DNA of 64,000 nucleotides from Acidobacteriota bacterium (lineage in GTDB: Bacteria > Acidobacteriota > Terriglobia > UBA7540). The notes below the pieces were generated by a model that was not told where the DNA came from, searched no databases, and saw nothing but the letters and a program-made list of their open reading frames with translations. Below are positions 57,103 to 64,000 of this stretch, in pieces (position 1 is the first letter of the stretch; every line of letters begins with the position of its first letter). A program made the translations under genes and the position numbers. The DNA lies in the NCBI GenBank assembly GCA_004298155.1, contig SCRD01000017.1:124001-188000 (forward strand), read 5' to 3'.

Positions 57103-57279
57103 GCAAAACCTGCTCAATTCATGTAGCCCTTCTTTCATCTCTCTCACGCTCCTTTGTGGCATCTGTTTTGGCCTTCGACGGCCCCTGGGCGAGAGTGGAA
57201 TTCAGCGGTTGCGGTAACCTGTCCGTGTGTTAAACTACCTCCTTTAATTTTCGAAAAGCAGGTTCTATCAGGAGGCGTT

Positions 57280-58902
57280 GTGCGCAAGCGGCTGGGGATT
57301 TTCTTGTTTGTCTTTAGTCTGGCGGCAACGTGGGTTCCTACACGCGCGGCTGCTCCGCAGCAGGCAGGCAGGGCCGCGGCCATCCGCAAGCCGCGATTGA
57401 TCATCATGCTGGTGATCGACCAGTTCCGTTACGACTATCTGCTGCGCTTCCGGCCTGAGTTTGTTCAGGGAGGTTTTAACCTGCTGCTGAGCGGCGCCAA
57501 CTTTGTGAACTGCAGGTACGATTACGCCACCACGGCCACCTGCCCCGGCCACGCTGCGCTGGCAACGGGGGCTTACGCAAACCTGAACGGCATCATCGGC
57601 AACAGCTGGTGGGCGCCAGCCCTCGGCAAGGAAGTCTATTGCGTTGCCGATCCCGATGTTCAAGTGGTGGGTGCAGCGTCCGGCGAAGGCATGTCTCCCC
57701 GCAACCTGACCGCCAGCACTTTTGGCGATGAACTGAGGCTGGCTTCCGGCCTGAAGTCGCAGGTGGTGGCCATCTCCTGGAAAGACCGTGCGGCCATCAT
57801 GTTGGGCGGCCACTTGCCGAGCGCCGTCTACTGGGCTGACCCATCGACCGCGCACTTTATCACCAGCACTTACTACACCAGCACGCTGCCCGGATGGGTG
57901 GCGCAATTCAACGCACAGGATCCGGCCAAAGAATATTGCGGCGAACCCTGGCGGGCGCTCCCGGAGACTCCTGACGTAGGCGGCAAAATGCTGCACGCCG
58001 CGGCAACCGGCCCCGGCGAGCCCTGCCCCAGCAGGAAGTTCTCTGAGCATCTGCCGTCCACGCCTTTCGCCAACCAGTTGGAACTTAACTTCGCCACGGC
58101 TGCCATTCAAAATGACCACCTCGGCCAAGGCCCGGCTACCGACCTGTTAGCTATCTCACTGAGCGCCAACGATTACATAGGGCACGGCTACGGACCTTAC
58201 AGCCCGGAAGTTGCCGACGCTACTCTCCGAACCGATCGTTACCTTGCCGACTTCTTCAAGAAAGTTAACCAGCTTGTGGGGCTCGATAACGTTTGGATCA
58301 CGCTTTCCGCTGACCACGGAGTGGCGCCGACGCCTGCATTTATCCTGGAGCACCATCTCGGACCGGGCCGGTTGGATCCAAAACCCGTCAAGGCAGCCGT
58401 CGAACAGGCGCTCGCGAAGGCCTTCGGGCCGGGCGACTGGCTTGCAAATCTTGGCGAGTTCTACATTGACCTGAACCATCCGGCCCTTGAAAGCCACAAC
58501 ATCAGCATCGCCCAAGCCGAGGAAGTGGCCGCCCATGCAGCCATGTCAGTTCCTACGATTCGCGCTGCGTTCACTCGCACGCAATTTCTCGATGGCGAAC
58601 TGCCCCGCACACCACTTGCCCGCAAAGCCGCCAACAGCTATAACCCCACTCGTAGTGGTGACGTCTTCCTGATACCCCAACCCTATGCGGTCATTAACGG
58701 TAGTATGACGGGAACCAGCCACGGCACTCCCTGGAATTATGACGCCCAGGTGCCGCTGGTTTTCTGGGGACAAGAATTCAAACCAGGGAATTACACCATG
58801 CCCGCCCAGCCTATCGATCTGGCATCGACGCTGGCGGCAGCACTCGGCATGACGCAACCTTCCGACGCTCAGGGCCAGCCGCTTACAAACATCCTCAAAT
58901 GA
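57280..58902 (+). CDS. PafA-like alkaline phosphatase (type I phosphodiesterase superfamily)
   Basis: This is a 540-residue exported phosphatase. GTG at 57280 follows AGGAGG; the frame is open further up but lacks a site. A signal peptide covers residues 5-25. The mature enzyme has VIDQFRYDYL (metal-binding Asp47), TTATCPGHAALATG (nucleophile Thr, about 87), GNSWW, SWKDRAAIML (Lys168 and Arg170, as in PafA-type enzymes), SANDYIGHGYGPYSPEV, SADHGVAPTP and GTSHGTPWNYDAQVPLVFWG. PafA-like enzymes release phosphate from many monoesters and are not inhibited by phosphate. It would supply phosphate from organic matter. Confidence 0.92.
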   Translation: MRKRLGIFLFVFSLAATWVPTRAAAPQQAGRAAAIRKPRLIIMLVIDQFRYDYLLRFRPEFVQGGFNLLLSGANFVNCRYDYATTATCPGHAALATGAYANLNGIIGNSWWAPALGKEVYCVADPDVQVVGAASGEGMSPRNLTASTFGDELRLASGLKSQVVAISWKDRAAIMLGGHLPSAVYWADPSTAHFITSTYYTSTLPGWVAQFNAQDPAKEYCGEPWRALPETPDVGGKMLHAAATGPGEPCPSRKFSEHLPSTPFANQLELNFATAAIQNDHLGQGPATDLLAISLSANDYIGHGYGPYSPEVADATLRTDRYLADFFKKVNQLVGLDNVWITLSADHGVAPTPAFILEHHLGPGRLDPKPVKAAVEQALAKAFGPGDWLANLGEFYIDLNHPALESHNISIAQAEEVAAHAAMSVPTIRAAFTRTQFLDGELPRTPLARKAANSYNPTRSGDVFLIPQPYAVINGSMTGTSHGTPWNYDAQVPLVFWGQEFKPGNYTMPAQPIDLASTLAAALGMTQPSDAQGQPLTNILK

Positions 58903-59089: not shown

Positions 59090-59560
59090 TTGAGAAATCT
59101 CGTTATGGGTTGTGCAGTGGCAGCCTTGGTGGCGCTTTCTGCTCGATCCGAAGCCAGGTCCCCGGAGTTAAGAATGTTGCAGGTAGGGACTCCATCTGCC
59201 GCAAAGGCCCAGTTTGGCTTGGCGAGCTGGTATGGCCAGGAATTCCATGGGCATCCCACTGCCAGCGGACAGTCATTCGATATGGAAGGCCTGACCTGCG
59301 CCCACCGCAAGCTTCCATTGGGCACCCTGGTTAAGGTCACCAACGTGTTGAATGCCCGGTGGCTAGTGCTTGAGGTAACGGATCGCGGCCCGTGGGTCGC
59401 CAACCGCGTGCTGGACGTTAGCAAGGGGGCTGCAAAACGCCTGGGGTTTATTGATGCAGGGCTGACGCCTGTTTGCATCCAGGTGGTGTCCTATCCCCAA
59501 TCGAGTGGCGAGCTCATAAGCCAGGCCAATCCTCAGACCTCGATGTGGCAGACAAACTAA
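59090..59560 (+). CDS. rlpA: RlpA family septal ring lytic transglycosylase-like protein
   Basis: This is a 156-residue exported protein with a double-psi beta-barrel domain. It starts at TTG behind GGAGGGG; a later ATG (59105) is possible but less well placed. Residues 1-22 are a signal peptide. Family strings are GLASWYGQEFHGHPTASGQSFD (key parts ASWYG and TASGQ), LTCAHRKLPLGTLVKVTN, VLEVTDRGPW, RVLDVSKGAAKRLGF and CIQVV. RlpA cleaves denuded glycan strands in some bacteria; the catalytic Glu/His and Asp positions appear kept. There is no SPOR domain, so it is a minimal RlpA. Confidence 0.88.
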   Translation: MRNLVMGCAVAALVALSARSEARSPELRMLQVGTPSAAKAQFGLASWYGQEFHGHPTASGQSFDMEGLTCAHRKLPLGTLVKVTNVLNARWLVLEVTDRGPWVANRVLDVSKGAAKRLGFIDAGLTPVCIQVVSYPQSSGELISQANPQTSMWQTN

Positions 59561-59713: not shown

Positions 59714-60586
59714 TCAGCTTAGGCGCAGGTTCCGGATGTAATCGTAGCTGATCTTGATGGCTTGGAACTCCGGCAGGTTGCAACGGTCCTGTTCGACAAA
59801 GATATGTTTGGCCCCGGCCTCGCGAACGTGGGCGAAGATCCGCTGCCAATCGATGCGTCCCCGGCCAACGGGGGCAAAGGGGTTCGGCCCGCTTTCCCCG
59901 GGATCTTTTTGCGGACTGACCTTGACGCCCTTGCGCAGGTCTTTGATGTGCAGCAGGGGAAAGCGCCCGGGATAGAGTCGCCAGTAGTGGAGCGGGTCAG
60001 CCCCGGCATAGGTGACCCAGAAGATATCCATCTCCATTTTCAGAAGGTCAGGACTACAATTCTTGAGCATGATGTCGTAGCCGGTGGTGCCGCCAACTTT
60101 GGCGAATTCATGGAAATGGGCATGGTAGCAGAATTGGATGCCAGCCTGCGTTGATACCTCACCGCATTTGTTAAAGAAATCGGCGCGGCGCCTCCAGGCT
60201 GCGGCGTCCAGAACAGGGTTGTCGCCGATCACAATGTATTGGAGGCCGTATTCGTGGGCCTGGCCGACAGATTTCTTCCAGTCATCGAGGTTTTTGGGAG
60301 CATCGAAGTAGCCGCTGGGCGCAGTCAGGCCCGCGGCGCGCAGGTCCTCTTTCAGAGTGGCGGGCTTCGTTCCGGGGCCGATCTCAACCTCCCGGTAACC
60401 GGCCGCGGCAACCTTCTTCAAAGTCCCAGCGGGGTCCGTGGCGAAGCGGTCGCGTACCGTATAAAGCTCAAGCCCAACTGGACCTGGCCAGGCCGGTCTG
60501 CCTGCTGCCCAGGCGTCGCGAACGGGTTTTGCCGCACCGGCCGCTGCTCCACCAAGCACTCCAAGAAAATTGCGTCGCGTCAACAT
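59714..60586 (-). CDS. Tat-exported sugar phosphate isomerase/epimerase
   Basis: This is a 290-residue TIM-barrel protein of the xylose-isomerase-like family. The N-terminus is a twin-arginine signal (TRRNFLGVLGGAAAGAA). The mature part has GLELYTVRDRF, GYREVEIGPG, YIVIGD, FCYHAHFHEF, MEMDIFWVTYAGADP, FPLLHIKDLRKG, PVGRGRIDW and HIFVEQDRC. The metal-site Glu, Asp, His and Glu are all present. Such exported isomerases are common in Acidobacteriota and Planctomycetes next to Gfo/Idh/MocA oxidoreductases, two of which lie 2-3 kb away. The sugar acted on is unknown. It is divergent from the peroxiredoxin gene. Confidence 0.88.
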   Translation of the reverse strand: MLTRRNFLGVLGGAAAGAAKPVRDAWAAGRPAWPGPVGLELYTVRDRFATDPAGTLKKVAAAGYREVEIGPGTKPATLKEDLRAAGLTAPSGYFDAPKNLDDWKKSVGQAHEYGLQYIVIGDNPVLDAAAWRRRADFFNKCGEVSTQAGIQFCYHAHFHEFAKVGGTTGYDIMLKNCSPDLLKMEMDIFWVTYAGADPLHYWRLYPGRFPLLHIKDLRKGVKVSPQKDPGESGPNPFAPVGRGRIDWQRIFAHVREAGAKHIFVEQDRCNLPEFQAIKISYDYIRNLRLS

Positions 60587-60762
60587 GTTCCTACCTCCAA
60601 GTATGTGGCCGTCATTTAATAACAGGCGTAATCCTGTGTCAACTGTTACCGGTTCTCTTGAGTTTTTTTCGGATTCTGAATTACGATGAAAGGTTGTGCG
60701 ATCGGCGATTTACCGTTTTGTGTACCTGTAGTCACCATTACGAGCAAGGGAGATCACGTTCC

Positions 60763-61368
60763 ATGTCAGAAGCACTGAGGCTCGGGGAGAAAGTTCCTGA
60801 ATTTGACCTGACTACCTTCGACCCAGCCACCAACAAATTCGGCAATTTTAAGCTTGTCACCCAGATTAACCGGAAGCGATGGACGGTGTTGTTTTTCTAT
60901 CCCGCCGATTTTACTTTTGTTTGAGCCACCGAATTTGCTGCTCTGGCAGAGCAGCATGACCGGTTCGTGAAGATGGGCTGCGACATTATTACGGTCAGCA
61001 CGGATACGCAGTTTGTCCATCTGGCGTGGCGCAAAAGCGAGAAAGAACTGGCAAACGTCCGCTATCCGATGGCGGCTGATCCCACTGGCAAGGTCTCGCG
61101 GCTGTTCGGTGTTTACGATGAAAACACCGGGCTTGCCCTACGGGGAACGTTTATTATCAGCCCGGAAGGCATCCTCACGAACTCCGAAGTGAATTTTTAC
61201 AACCTGGGGCGCAACATTGACGAGTTAATGCGGAAATTCAAGGCCAACATCTATATGTCTCGGAAAACATCGGAAGTCTGCCCGTCTAAATGGAAGGACG
61301 ATGGAGACAAGACTCTCGTTCCTTCTGAGAATCTGGTTGGCGCTGTCCACGAAGCATTGCGCGATTAG
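60763..61368 (+). CDS. Peroxiredoxin with in-frame UGA at the peroxidatic position (probable selenoprotein)
   Basis: This 201-residue AhpC-type 2-Cys peroxiredoxin reduces peroxides in the cytosol. ATG follows AAGGGAG. The frame is MSEALRLGEKVPEFDL, then FFYPADFTFV, then TGA (60922-60924), then ATEFAALAEQ in the same frame, continuing without further stops to the end. In homologues the codon after PxDFTFV is the peroxidatic Cys (FVC-x-TE), so the UGA replaces exactly the catalytic residue and most likely encodes selenocysteine (Sec54). The Thr of the T-x-x-C motif (Thr51), the Arg in LRGTF (Arg127) and the resolving Cys in EVCPSKW (Cys173) are kept. A SECIS-like hairpin follows the UGA. A nonsense mutation is the alternative. 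Confidence 0.85.
60928..60964 (+). promoter_or_regulatory. Candidate bacterial SECIS element
   Basis: Right after the in-frame UGA, TGCTGCTC (60936-60943) pairs perfectly with GAGCAGCA (60949-60956) around the five-base loop TGGCA. A lower helix of ACCG (60928-60931) with CGGT (60961-60964) is separated from it by a four-by-four internal loop. The apical loop starts 20 bases after the UGA and has G as its second base. Both fit the bacterial SECIS model of a small loop with an early G about 16-37 bases from the UGA, recognised by SelB. Confidence 0.72.
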
Positions 61369-61594
61369 CATGACGGTTTTGGCCTCCTGGATTTCCGCTG
61401 GCACGGCGACCATCAAGGCTTCACCGAAGTCCATTTTGCGCTTCTCTATTATGTAGCTCGCGGGTAGCAATCGCAGAAAGTAGATGAGGGCTGCTGGAAG
61501 CAGTGTGCACAGGCGGGCTGAAATTCCGGGTGCTGTTCCGTGGAGCGTCTTTCACAAGCCAGGATTGGTCCGTGTAATATTTCGTGGGGTTCGA

Positions 61595-62080
61595 ATGCTT
61601 TGCATACGCCCGGCGGAGACCAAAGACATTCCGCTGATTATCCAGTTCATCAGCGAACTGGCTGAATATGAAAAGGAGCCGGACCAGGCCGTAGCCACGG
61701 AGCAGGACATCCGGCGTGACGGCTTCTCCGCCAATCCGAAATTTCGCGTCGTCATTGCCGAATGGAGCGGCGATCCGGCCGGCTTCGCACTCTTCTATTA
61801 TAACTATTCCACATGGATGGGCCGTCCCGGGCTTTACCTTGAAGACCTGTTTGTGCGACCGAAATTCCGCGACAAGGGAATCGGCAAAGCTCTGCTAGTG
61901 CATCTGGCGAAGATAGCAGTCGTAGAAGGCTGTGGGCGGTTCGAATGGCAGGTGCTCAACTGGAACATTCCGGCGCTTGAGTTTTACAGGGCGCTCGGGG
62001 CATGTGTGATGGAGGAATGGTCTACCATGCGTATTACCGGCGAACCGCTGAAGAAACTGGCTTCACTGAGCAAATTATAA
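61595..62080 (+). CDS. GNAT family N-acetyltransferase
   Basis: This is a 161-residue acetyltransferase. It starts MLCIRPAETKDIPLI and has the GNAT motifs YLEDLFVRPKFRDKGIGKALLVHLAKIA (motif A, with the RDKGIG acetyl-CoA loop) and FEWQVLNWNIPALEFYRALGA (motif B, with the N and Y usual for the family). The layout, including LAEYEKEPDQ and FYYNYSTWMGRPGLYLEDL, is that of spermidine/thialysine (diamine) acetyltransferases. The frame is open 37 codons upstream, but the ATG at 61595 gives the normal N-terminus. It may act on polyamines or lysine analogues. Confidence 0.88.
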   Translation: MLCIRPAETKDIPLIIQFISELAEYEKEPDQAVATEQDIRRDGFSANPKFRVVIAEWSGDPAGFALFYYNYSTWMGRPGLYLEDLFVRPKFRDKGIGKALLVHLAKIAVVEGCGRFEWQVLNWNIPALEFYRALGACVMEEWSTMRITGEPLKKLASLSKL

Positions 62081-62298
62081 GAAAGCCGGATGCCGTGCAC
62101 GCAATAGGAATTCTTACCGCGCAACGGATCCTCAAAGCCCGCACCTTAGCGGACGCGGGAGTCACATCGGAACAGTCAACCCGGCAAAAGGTTCGTGAAT
62201 AAAAGTCTTTCCCTCTGCGCCGGTTTCTGTCAAACTTGCCCGTTATCTAAGTTGTGTCGGCGCGCTTTTTAGAATTTCGCGAGGAGGGCAGGTGTTCT

Positions 62299-63666
62299 AT
62301 GTCTAGAGATTCAATCACACGTCGTGATTTCATGCGAGTGGGAGCGGGAGCGGCCGCAGCCGGTTCGGCTGCCAAGGTGATGTTGCTGGAACCGGCGCGC
62401 GCGATGGCGTCGCCCCGGCCCATACCGCCCTCGGACAGGCTTCGGTTTGCTTCTATAGGAACAGGAGTGCGGGGATGCGAGGATTTATCAACCGCGCTCC
62501 GTGCACCCGGAGTGGAAATGGTGGCCGTCTCTGACCTCTATGACGGGCGATTGATCGCTGCCCAGGAGCACGCCGGTAAGAAGTTGGACACCACCAAAGA
62601 CTACCGCAGAATCCTGGACCGCAAGGACATTGATTTTGTGATTGTGGCCACCATGGACCACTGGCACTCAAAGATCGTCGAAGACGCCTGTGCTGCCGGC
62701 AAGGACGTTTATTGTGAAAAGCCGATGACGCACAAAGTTCCGGAAGGCTTCCGGATCATTGAGGCAGCCCAGAAATACGGACGAATGGTGCAGGTAGGCA
62801 GCCAGCGGCGGAGCAACGTGGTTTTTGCCAAGGGGCGGGAGATCGTTGAGAGTGGGGCGCTGGGGCAGATAACCGCCGTGGAGGGCTGGATCGACCGCAA
62901 TGATCCGAGCGGCGCCTGGGTCTATCCGATTCCGCCGGACGCCAACGAGCGGACCATTGACTGGGAGCGATTCCTTGGCGACGCCCCCAGGCGGTCCTTC
63001 GACGCCAAGAGGTTTTTCCGCTGGCGCGGATACTCAGATTATGGCGAAGGCTTGCCCGGTGATTTGTATGTCCACATCCTGACCGGGATTTACACCGTGA
63101 TGGGGTTCGAGGCGCCGCCTCAAAGGGCCGCTGCCGGCGGCGGTCTTTATCACTATAAAGACGGCCGCGACGAGCCCGACATGATCTGGACGCTTTATAC
63201 GTTTCCGGGAACGACTGTTTCCGTCCGTTGCAACCTGAATAATGATTCGCAGGGTGGAGACACACGAATTTATGGCACCAAGGGTACGCTGATGTTTAAC
63301 GGTGAAGAATCGGTGACTTTTGTCCCTCAGGATACGCGTCCTCAGCCGGAAAGGTATTCCGTTGATGGATGGCCGAAAAAGATGCGCGAGGAGTACTGGG
63401 CGCACTGGAAAGAGGAGCATCCCGCGCCGCCGTTGAATTCGTTGACTGCTGTTGAACAATCGCAGACCTTCCGCGTGCCTGATGGTTACGATGAGGACCT
63501 GGTACACATGGAGAATTTCCTCAACGCAGTCAGGACGCGAAAGCCCAACGATGAGGGACCCGTCTTCGGCAACTGGACAGCCATTTCGTGCCACATGGCG
63601 AACCATTCCTATTTCAACAAGGCTGAGGCTATCTGGGACGAGAAGGCCAAAACGATCCGGACGTAG
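62299..63666 (+). CDS. Tat-exported Gfo/Idh/MocA family oxidoreductase
   Basis: This is a 455-residue NAD(P)-dependent oxidoreductase with ATG behind GGAGGGCAGG. The N-terminus is a twin-arginine signal (SITRRDFMRVGAGAAAAG). The Rossmann domain follows (FASIGTGVRG, VAVSDLYDG, IVATMDHWHSKIV) with the family motif DVYCEKPMTHKV (catalytic Lys in EKP). The C-terminal domain has WRGYSDYGEGLPGDLYVHI (key His) and INGTKG-like YGTKGTLMF. Exported members carry a bound cofactor and act on sugars in the periplasm. A second gene of the same kind starts 144 bases later, so the two are probably co-transcribed. Confidence 0.92.
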   Translation: MSRDSITRRDFMRVGAGAAAAGSAAKVMLLEPARAMASPRPIPPSDRLRFASIGTGVRGCEDLSTALRAPGVEMVAVSDLYDGRLIAAQEHAGKKLDTTKDYRRILDRKDIDFVIVATMDHWHSKIVEDACAAGKDVYCEKPMTHKVPEGFRIIEAAQKYGRMVQVGSQRRSNVVFAKGREIVESGALGQITAVEGWIDRNDPSGAWVYPIPPDANERTIDWERFLGDAPRRSFDAKRFFRWRGYSDYGEGLPGDLYVHILTGIYTVMGFEAPPQRAAAGGGLYHYKDGRDEPDMIWTLYTFPGTTVSVRCNLNNDSQGGDTRIYGTKGTLMFNGEESVTFVPQDTRPQPERYSVDGWPKKMREEYWAHWKEEHPAPPLNSLTAVEQSQTFRVPDGYDEDLVHMENFLNAVRTRKPNDEGPVFGNWTAISCHMANHSYFNKAEAIWDEKAKTIRT

Positions 63667-63809: not shown

Positions 63810-64000
63810 ATGGGGAACGATGGGATATCGCGGCGCGATTTTATGCGGAGAACTTCCACTGCGGCCGGCGCGGCGCTGGTCGGAAAGTCTGTTCTGCTCG
63901 AAGCCGAAAATCTTGCCGCATCGCCCACGCCTGTGCCGCCCAGCGACACGGTGCGTTTCGGCATGGTCGGCATCGGCATGCAGGGCTCGGGCTTGCTGGG
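63810..64000 (+). CDS. Second Tat-exported Gfo/Idh/MocA oxidoreductase, N-terminal part
   Basis: ATG follows GGGGAGG, and the frame runs off the right edge. The first 63 residues hold a twin-arginine signal (ISRRDFMRRTSTAAGAALVG) and the start of the Rossmann fold (VRFGMVGIGMQGSGLL). The layout matches the preceding gene (RRDFMR, then PxPPSDxxRF, then GxGxxG), so they are paralogues, probably a tandem duplication that has diverged. The catalytic EKP motif lies outside the window. Confidence 0.85.
   Translation, partial: MGNDGISRRDFMRRTSTAAGAALVGKSVLLEAENLAASPTPVPPSDTVRFGMVGIGMQGSGLL

Follow-up and report, generated by a model that had tools for sequence, protein, structure and literature searches.

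The gene at 60763-61368 of the window (forward strand) very probably encodes a functional selenocysteine (Sec) peroxiredoxin of the AhpC/Prx1 type, in which a UGA codon (60922-60924) is decoded as Sec54 by way of a downstream hairpin; we put the probability of this reading at about 0.96. The window is the whole stretch of DNA that was analysed, 64,000 nucleotides in length, and corresponds to positions 124001-188000 of contig C17 in genome G000 (5.21 Mb, 97.6% complete). At the level of sequence, the reading is carried by the recoding site itself, by constraint on the RNA, by the Sec machinery of the host, by the predicted fold and by purifying selection.

The gene and its predicted protein

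The original prediction described an AhpC-type frame broken only by the TGA at 60922-60924, at the position of the peroxidatic Cys, and this is what we find: translated with TGA as a residue, 60763-61368 gives a protein of 201 amino acids with a single recoded codon (codon 54), and ends at a TAG stop. The residue set of a typical 2-Cys peroxiredoxin (Thr, peroxidatic Cys or Sec, Arg and a C-terminal resolving Cys) is complete in the sequence. Active-site Thr51 (60913-60915), codon 54 (with C standing for U), active-site Arg127 (61141-61143) and resolving Cys173 of the VCP motif (61279-61281) are the same in all 29 aligned relatives, and Thr51, Arg127 and Cys173 are intact, as had been claimed. 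The in-frame UGA aligns with a functional Cys of homologues, as is characteristic of bacterial selenoproteins, and the codon directly after it (60925-60927) specifies Ala, where nearly all Cys AhpC proteins have Pro.

Membership in the peroxiredoxins is indicated by the Pfam AhpC-TSA profile (PF00578), which scores 120.5 bits against a gathering cut-off of 26; the 1-cysPrx_C profile remains just below its own (19.8 and 21.1 bits, respectively). The protein also scores below the curated cut-offs of two equivalog families, namely TIGR03137 for AhpC (188.5 vs 272) and NF040737 for PrxU (175.1 vs 270). AhpC proteins are its closest solved relatives by sequence. An AlphaFold model has a pLDDT of 86.9, and the list of PDB folds similar to this model is headed by an Arabidopsis peroxiredoxin, with Salmonella AhpC second (TM 0.93 by target length).

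The dN/dS ratios, which are rough because dS is near saturation, are 0.31 before and 0.03 after the TGA for the pair L001/L006, 0.12 and 0.06 for L001/L007, and 0.16 and 0.05 for L006/L007; by this measure the region 3' of the TGA appears to be under purifying selection. A GTG start at 60967 opens a downstream ORF of 133 amino acids. No promoter- or terminator-like sites were found at 60500-61500.

Sec and Cys relatives

Aligned at codon 54, as the original prediction had proposed, the homologues have either TGA or Cys. TGA is shared by 43 genes from 43 genomes, the window's own included, and always lies in the motif FVUATE. The hosts of these Sec genes belong to Nitrospirota, Planctomycetota and the window's own phylum, with one Rokubacterium in addition. 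The residue following the active site is Ala in all 43, and among 80 Cys genes it is Pro in 74, Ala in five and Ser in one. Random stops elsewhere in the frame, which the prediction had named as a sign against it, do not occur in the 43 counted Sec genes, where no second stop interrupts the frame between the chosen start and a point at least 100 codons beyond the TGA. The 43 exclude L186, which comes from the same genome as L069 and was still counted in an earlier motif tally of 39 genes, and L011, which belongs to another subfamily. L156 (motif UATD, two TAG codons) and L158 (contig ending before codon 54) were not parsed.

The individual searches differ in depth. In the best 80 of 592 relatives, codon 54 is TGA in 11 and Cys in 69. 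Two further close copies (85 and 77% identity), both with TGA at the codon, were found in 101 near genomes. Among 396 genomes of the window's phylum there are 13 matches at E 1e-55 or better, its own included, with TGA in 11, Cys in one, and one cut off before the codon. The 198 genomes of Nitrospirota (the phylum of G103) gave 57 matches, 36 with one TGA and 21 free of stops; the DNA was read for 32 of the 57, and 14 others with one TGA were counted by the stop alone, its position unread. Many relatives have weaker matches with one TGA as well, counted without the position of the TGA. No close copy is present in G001, a 98% complete genome of the same genus.

Two trees were calculated, the first with 53 of 80 named loci, and the second with six of the 60 named loci L087-L146 kept and with L008 and L011 left out; the bootstrap is unsettled in both. 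In the smaller first tree, which lacks Cys genes of the CA type, 23 Sec genes form a clade (support 100/98), and in the second the 43 Sec genes group with the five CA-type Cys genes (90/85). The Rokubacterium gene stands beside genes of the window's phylum, and the Planctomycetota genes beside another gene of that phylum. This grouping across phyla points to transfer of the Sec-AhpC gene between them, as judged from the sequences.

The five CA-type genes (L204, L205, L206, L210 and L211; motif FVCATE) are Nitrospirota AhpC genes that fall within the Sec group or near it. They have the Sec-type protein sequence around the site, yet they have Cys and no hairpin, and selA is present in all five hosts. 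The second tree sets them among the Sec genes, and the AU test does not reject a topology in which the Sec genes form one clade that excludes them (p 0.122). Given this p value and the selA of their hosts, these genes may be intermediates rather than reversions from Sec to Cys.

Two of the loci set aside deserve separate description. L156 (1501-2100), one of the 11 TGA matches in the window's phylum, combines the Sec-codon TGA with two TAG codons, has no resolving Cys, and by eye has a longer perfect stem; it looks like a decaying copy. L011 (G018:C242, minus strand), from the same bacterial family, is 37% identical, has FVUSTE at the active site, lacks the VCP motif, forms another kind of hairpin, and is seemingly an independent Sec gene.

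The predicted SECIS hairpin

RNAfold yields exactly the two-part hairpin that had been claimed for 60928-60964. The lower stem is 4 bp long (60928-60931 with 60961-60964), and the upper stem-loop (60936-60956) has 9 bp (60936-60944 with 60948-60956) around the loop GGC (60945-60947). The upper stem can alternatively be read as the 8 bp of the original prediction, whose loop UGGCA begins 20 bases downstream of the UGA. The minimum free energy is -19.4 kcal/mol (z -2.8), and none of 200 shuffled sequences folds as well. According to PMC13188914, a bacterial SECIS has an upper stem of 4-16 bp, an apical loop of 3-9 nt with G at loop position 1 or 2, and a distance of 16-37 nt between UGA and loop. 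Either reading (9 bp with GGC, or 8 bp with UGGCA, the loop beginning 20-21 bases after the UGA) lies within those limits. An Rfam search gave no SECIS match, the sole hit at an E threshold of 5 being a sub-threshold miRNA on the opposite strand.

Conservation can be claimed for the upper stem only, as the MFE folds of relatives disagree on the form of the lower one. The 11-nt core CTCTGGCAGAG is unchanged in 41 of the 43 Sec genes and occurs in none of the 80 Cys genes, and the 18-mer GCTGCTCTGGCAGAGCAG is present in 35 of the 43. Codons +5 to +10 have a mean identity of 0.947 among the Sec genes, vs 0.432 over 92 other codon columns, the highest of which reaches 0.854. Codons +6, +7 and +9 are uniform throughout, and codon +10, where it specifies Gln (37 of 43), is always the same codon.

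Within the upper stem, it is the inner part that is conserved. Four of its nine pairs never change across the 43 genes; pair 23-27 is U-A in 41 and U-G in two, and pair 17-33 is C-G in 42 and A-U in one. Pair 18-32 is U-A in 36, C-G in three, G-U in one and unpaired in three (GA, AG and AA), and pair 16-34 is G-U in 26, G-C in 16 and unpaired in one. The outermost pair (15-35) is U-A in 25 genes and missing in the other 18. In an alignment of 15 sequences, L156 among them, the covariation score was reached by none of 500 shuffles, and the counts of pairs changed on both sides and of pair types were reached by 170 and 157 of 500, respectively; the covariation support rests on few pairs. None of nine near Cys genes forms the Sec-type hairpin, and one of them (L082) has a different fold of similar energy (-18.8 kcal/mol). 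Taken as a sequence pattern, the hairpin bears the marks of constraint at the RNA level.

A single SECIS sequence common to the selenoproteins of the host was considered and ruled out, as the TGA codons of L003, L004, L005 and SelD are followed by other folds (weak in L003). Over the same span, SelD elements have a mean pairwise identity of 0.467 (12 SelD TGA loci), vs 0.886 for Sec-AhpC (23 loci), in a partial comparison where the motif caught 15 of 23 SelD loci, the hosts are partly shared and the SelD protein is also less conserved. The 18-mer has no exact match in viral_contigs, and each of the 476 plasmid records that match falls below 60% identity. A second genomic GCTCTGGCAGAGC, at C24:56689, was dismissed as chance, with no in-frame TGA in the preceding 450 bases; the open frame around it looks, by eye, like that of a TonB receptor.

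The Sec machinery

The original prediction held that the host must carry selA, selB, selC and selD and that none of them is in the window, and the genome agrees on both counts. All four exceed their cut-offs: tRNA-Sec (68.4 bits vs 47; anticodon UCA by ARAGORN and the Rfam alignment), SelB (368 vs 242), SelA (585 vs 268) and SelD (377 vs 125). The host thus has the complete set expected of an organism with selenoproteins, and the best match to each of the four lies outside the window. The selD gene (L062, G000:C17:121050-121973) is about 2 kb to the left of the window, and itself has an in-frame TGA, in a GUAAK motif, followed by a different hairpin of its own. In 14 well-known control genomes the cut-off was exceeded by tRNA-Sec in five, SelB in two, SelA in one and SelD in two; the tRNA-Sec profile is the least specific of the four, and a hit to it alone is weak evidence.

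Among the hosts of the 43 Sec genes, many of which are incomplete assemblies, 41 have a selA match at E 1e-40 or better (the window's own genome, 11 of 11 with one contig-edge piece below the cut-off, and 29 of 31), and no match at that threshold was found in G215 and G533. SelD was found at E 1e-50 in 20 of 23 searched Sec-gene hosts, again with many incomplete assemblies, and is missing at that threshold from G264, G392 and G102. The SelB search covered the near genomes of the window. As selA also occurs in 13 of the 19 genomes that carry the nearest Cys genes (four of nine and nine of ten), the machinery does not predict the codon.

Other candidates and neighbouring genes

Three peroxiredoxin-like frames in the same genome also have TGA at the active-site position: L003 (1501-1836), L004 (1501-1887) and L005 (1501-1875), with the motifs FTPVUQNE, FTGGUTKE and NTPGUAQE. 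Two of the three adjoin. The neighbours of the gene are a type I phosphodiesterase (57154-58902), a DPBB (lytic transglycolase) domain protein (59090-59560), a xylose-isomerase-like TIM barrel (59714-60586) and a GNAT acetyltransferase (61484-62080), and no redox partner was found among these four. Further along, 62254-63666 encodes an oxidoreductase of the Gfo/Idh/MocA type with a twin-arginine-like start, and the beginning of a frame at 63810-64000 is similar to it by eye, with the same kind of start. No ORF family recurs in more than three of 23 loci, apart from the gene itself and frames that overlap it.

Alternative explanations

A Cys codon is one mutation from TGA (TGC or TGT), and the relative L156 looks decayed, so one could suppose a pseudogene or an assembly error. 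That the same codon is TGA in 43 genes of 43 genomes, the window's own included, that the downstream dN/dS is 0.03-0.06 in three comparisons and that the hairpin is conserved make this scarcely credible. The in-frame TGA seems to be read through, which a general recoding of UGA in the organism (e.g., to Trp or Gly) would also explain, but TGA is the commonest stop in 35 long non-overlapping ORFs of the window (TGA 14, TAG 11, TAA 10; at least 200 amino acids, picked by length and uncurated), Cys homologues have Cys rather than Trp or Gly at this position, and the Sec machinery is present. The chance of general recoding is practically negligible.

Sec insertion in bacteria competes with termination, and it could be that translation mostly ends at the UGA, with a truncated protein made alongside a little of the Sec form, or that the 133-residue ORF is translated alone from its GTG. 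We regard this as very unlikely: neither Thr51 nor the active-site codon is part of that ORF, the two parts of the gene are found together in all 43 counted genes, and a hairpin so nearly constant speaks for strong selection on decoding. The readings discussed so far, namely a pseudogene or sequencing error, a generally recoded UGA and a downstream ORF translated by itself, were all rejected on this evidence. The remaining alternative is that the hairpin is constrained for another reason, such as mRNA stability or a DNA-level element, and that Sec decoding relies on something else. So constant a sequence is indeed unusual for a bacterial SECIS, but its core tracks the UGA (41 of 43 Sec genes against none of 80 Cys genes, five close ones included), and the hairpin is within the bSECIS limits given in PMC13188914; we give this explanation very little weight.

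Relation to known systems

PrxU of Eubacterium acidaminophilum is, as we understand it, a Sec-containing peroxiredoxin that represents NCBIfam NF040737 (the "Prx TxxU" family). The window protein shares its TxxU active site and Prx fold and matches the family, but scores below its cut-off, is AhpC-like with a VCP resolving motif, and has a SECIS that is nearly constant across phyla. With the Cys AhpC proteins (TIGR03137; Salmonella AhpC, 4ma9 and 1n8j) it has in common the fold, the Thr/Cys/Arg set and the resolving Cys, and it differs from them by Sec in place of Cys and Ala in place of the Pro that follows, and by its score. COG0450 is presumably the AhpC group. A Prx-like selenoprotein from the Sargasso Sea is filed under that COG in PMC1088965, with a UxxC motif there, unlike the TxxU here. 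The AhpC selenoprotein of Blastococcus saxobsidens, as described in PMC5330540, also has an active-site Sec and a bSECIS downstream; the description sets it apart, with UAG and a CUA tRNA rather than UGA and UCA. Algal AhpC_a and AhpC_b likewise have an AhpC_TSA domain with Sec, but are eukaryotic and have the motifs TGGUT and UxxC (PMC7539508).

PMC13188914 and PMC9312934 give the TxxU Sec peroxiredoxins as a family, and PMC2398784 names Prx TxxU together with several Prx-like UxxC families. PMC1794560 counts 12 Prx selenoproteins, and four selenoproteins of three families in Acidobacteria, and PMC12013277 includes one Acidobacteriota genome, in which three known genes for selenoproteins are listed. 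A search of open-access papers by title, with passages of some, turned up no UGA-encoded bacterial AhpC with a near-constant SECIS; the published TxxU family may well include such genes. Sec peroxiredoxins themselves are already known; the unusual feature is a gene-specific SECIS that is nearly constant across phyla.

Proposed mechanism and significance

On the analogy of known AhpC and SelB systems, from which Sec insertion, chemistry and reductant are all taken, the hairpin at 60936-60956 would recruit SelB with Sec-tRNA(UCA), and the Sec-tRNA borne by SelB would decode the UGA at 60922-60924 as Sec54. Held by Thr51 and Arg127, Sec54 would reduce peroxide and become a selenenic acid, which Cys173 of the partner subunit would resolve to a selenenyl-sulfide, to be reduced in turn by a putative thioredoxin- or AhpF-like reductase.

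Beyond this single gene, we tentatively suggest, at somewhat under even odds, that the SECIS of the Sec-AhpC subfamily is specific to this gene and nearly frozen (GCUGCUCUGGCAGAGCAG), and that the SelB proteins of the window's phylum and of the three others named presumably read it. Synonymous constraint would be strong, perhaps because high AhpC output needs unusually efficient recoding, and the change from Pro to Ala would belong to the same adaptation, serving codon context or selenolate chemistry. On this near-frozen-SECIS reading, the hairpin seems to set the overlying protein sequence, from LADLAxK in the nearest Cys forms to FAALAEQ.

A gene-finding program that treats all TGA codons as stops splits this gene at its active site, so that a main peroxide defence of such organisms is easily missed. 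The near-constant hairpin is a candidate for a strong SECIS, and Sec genes that have it and close Cys genes that do not provide a natural comparison. The finding also raises the question of why this one SECIS should be frozen when other SECIS elements of the same cells vary.
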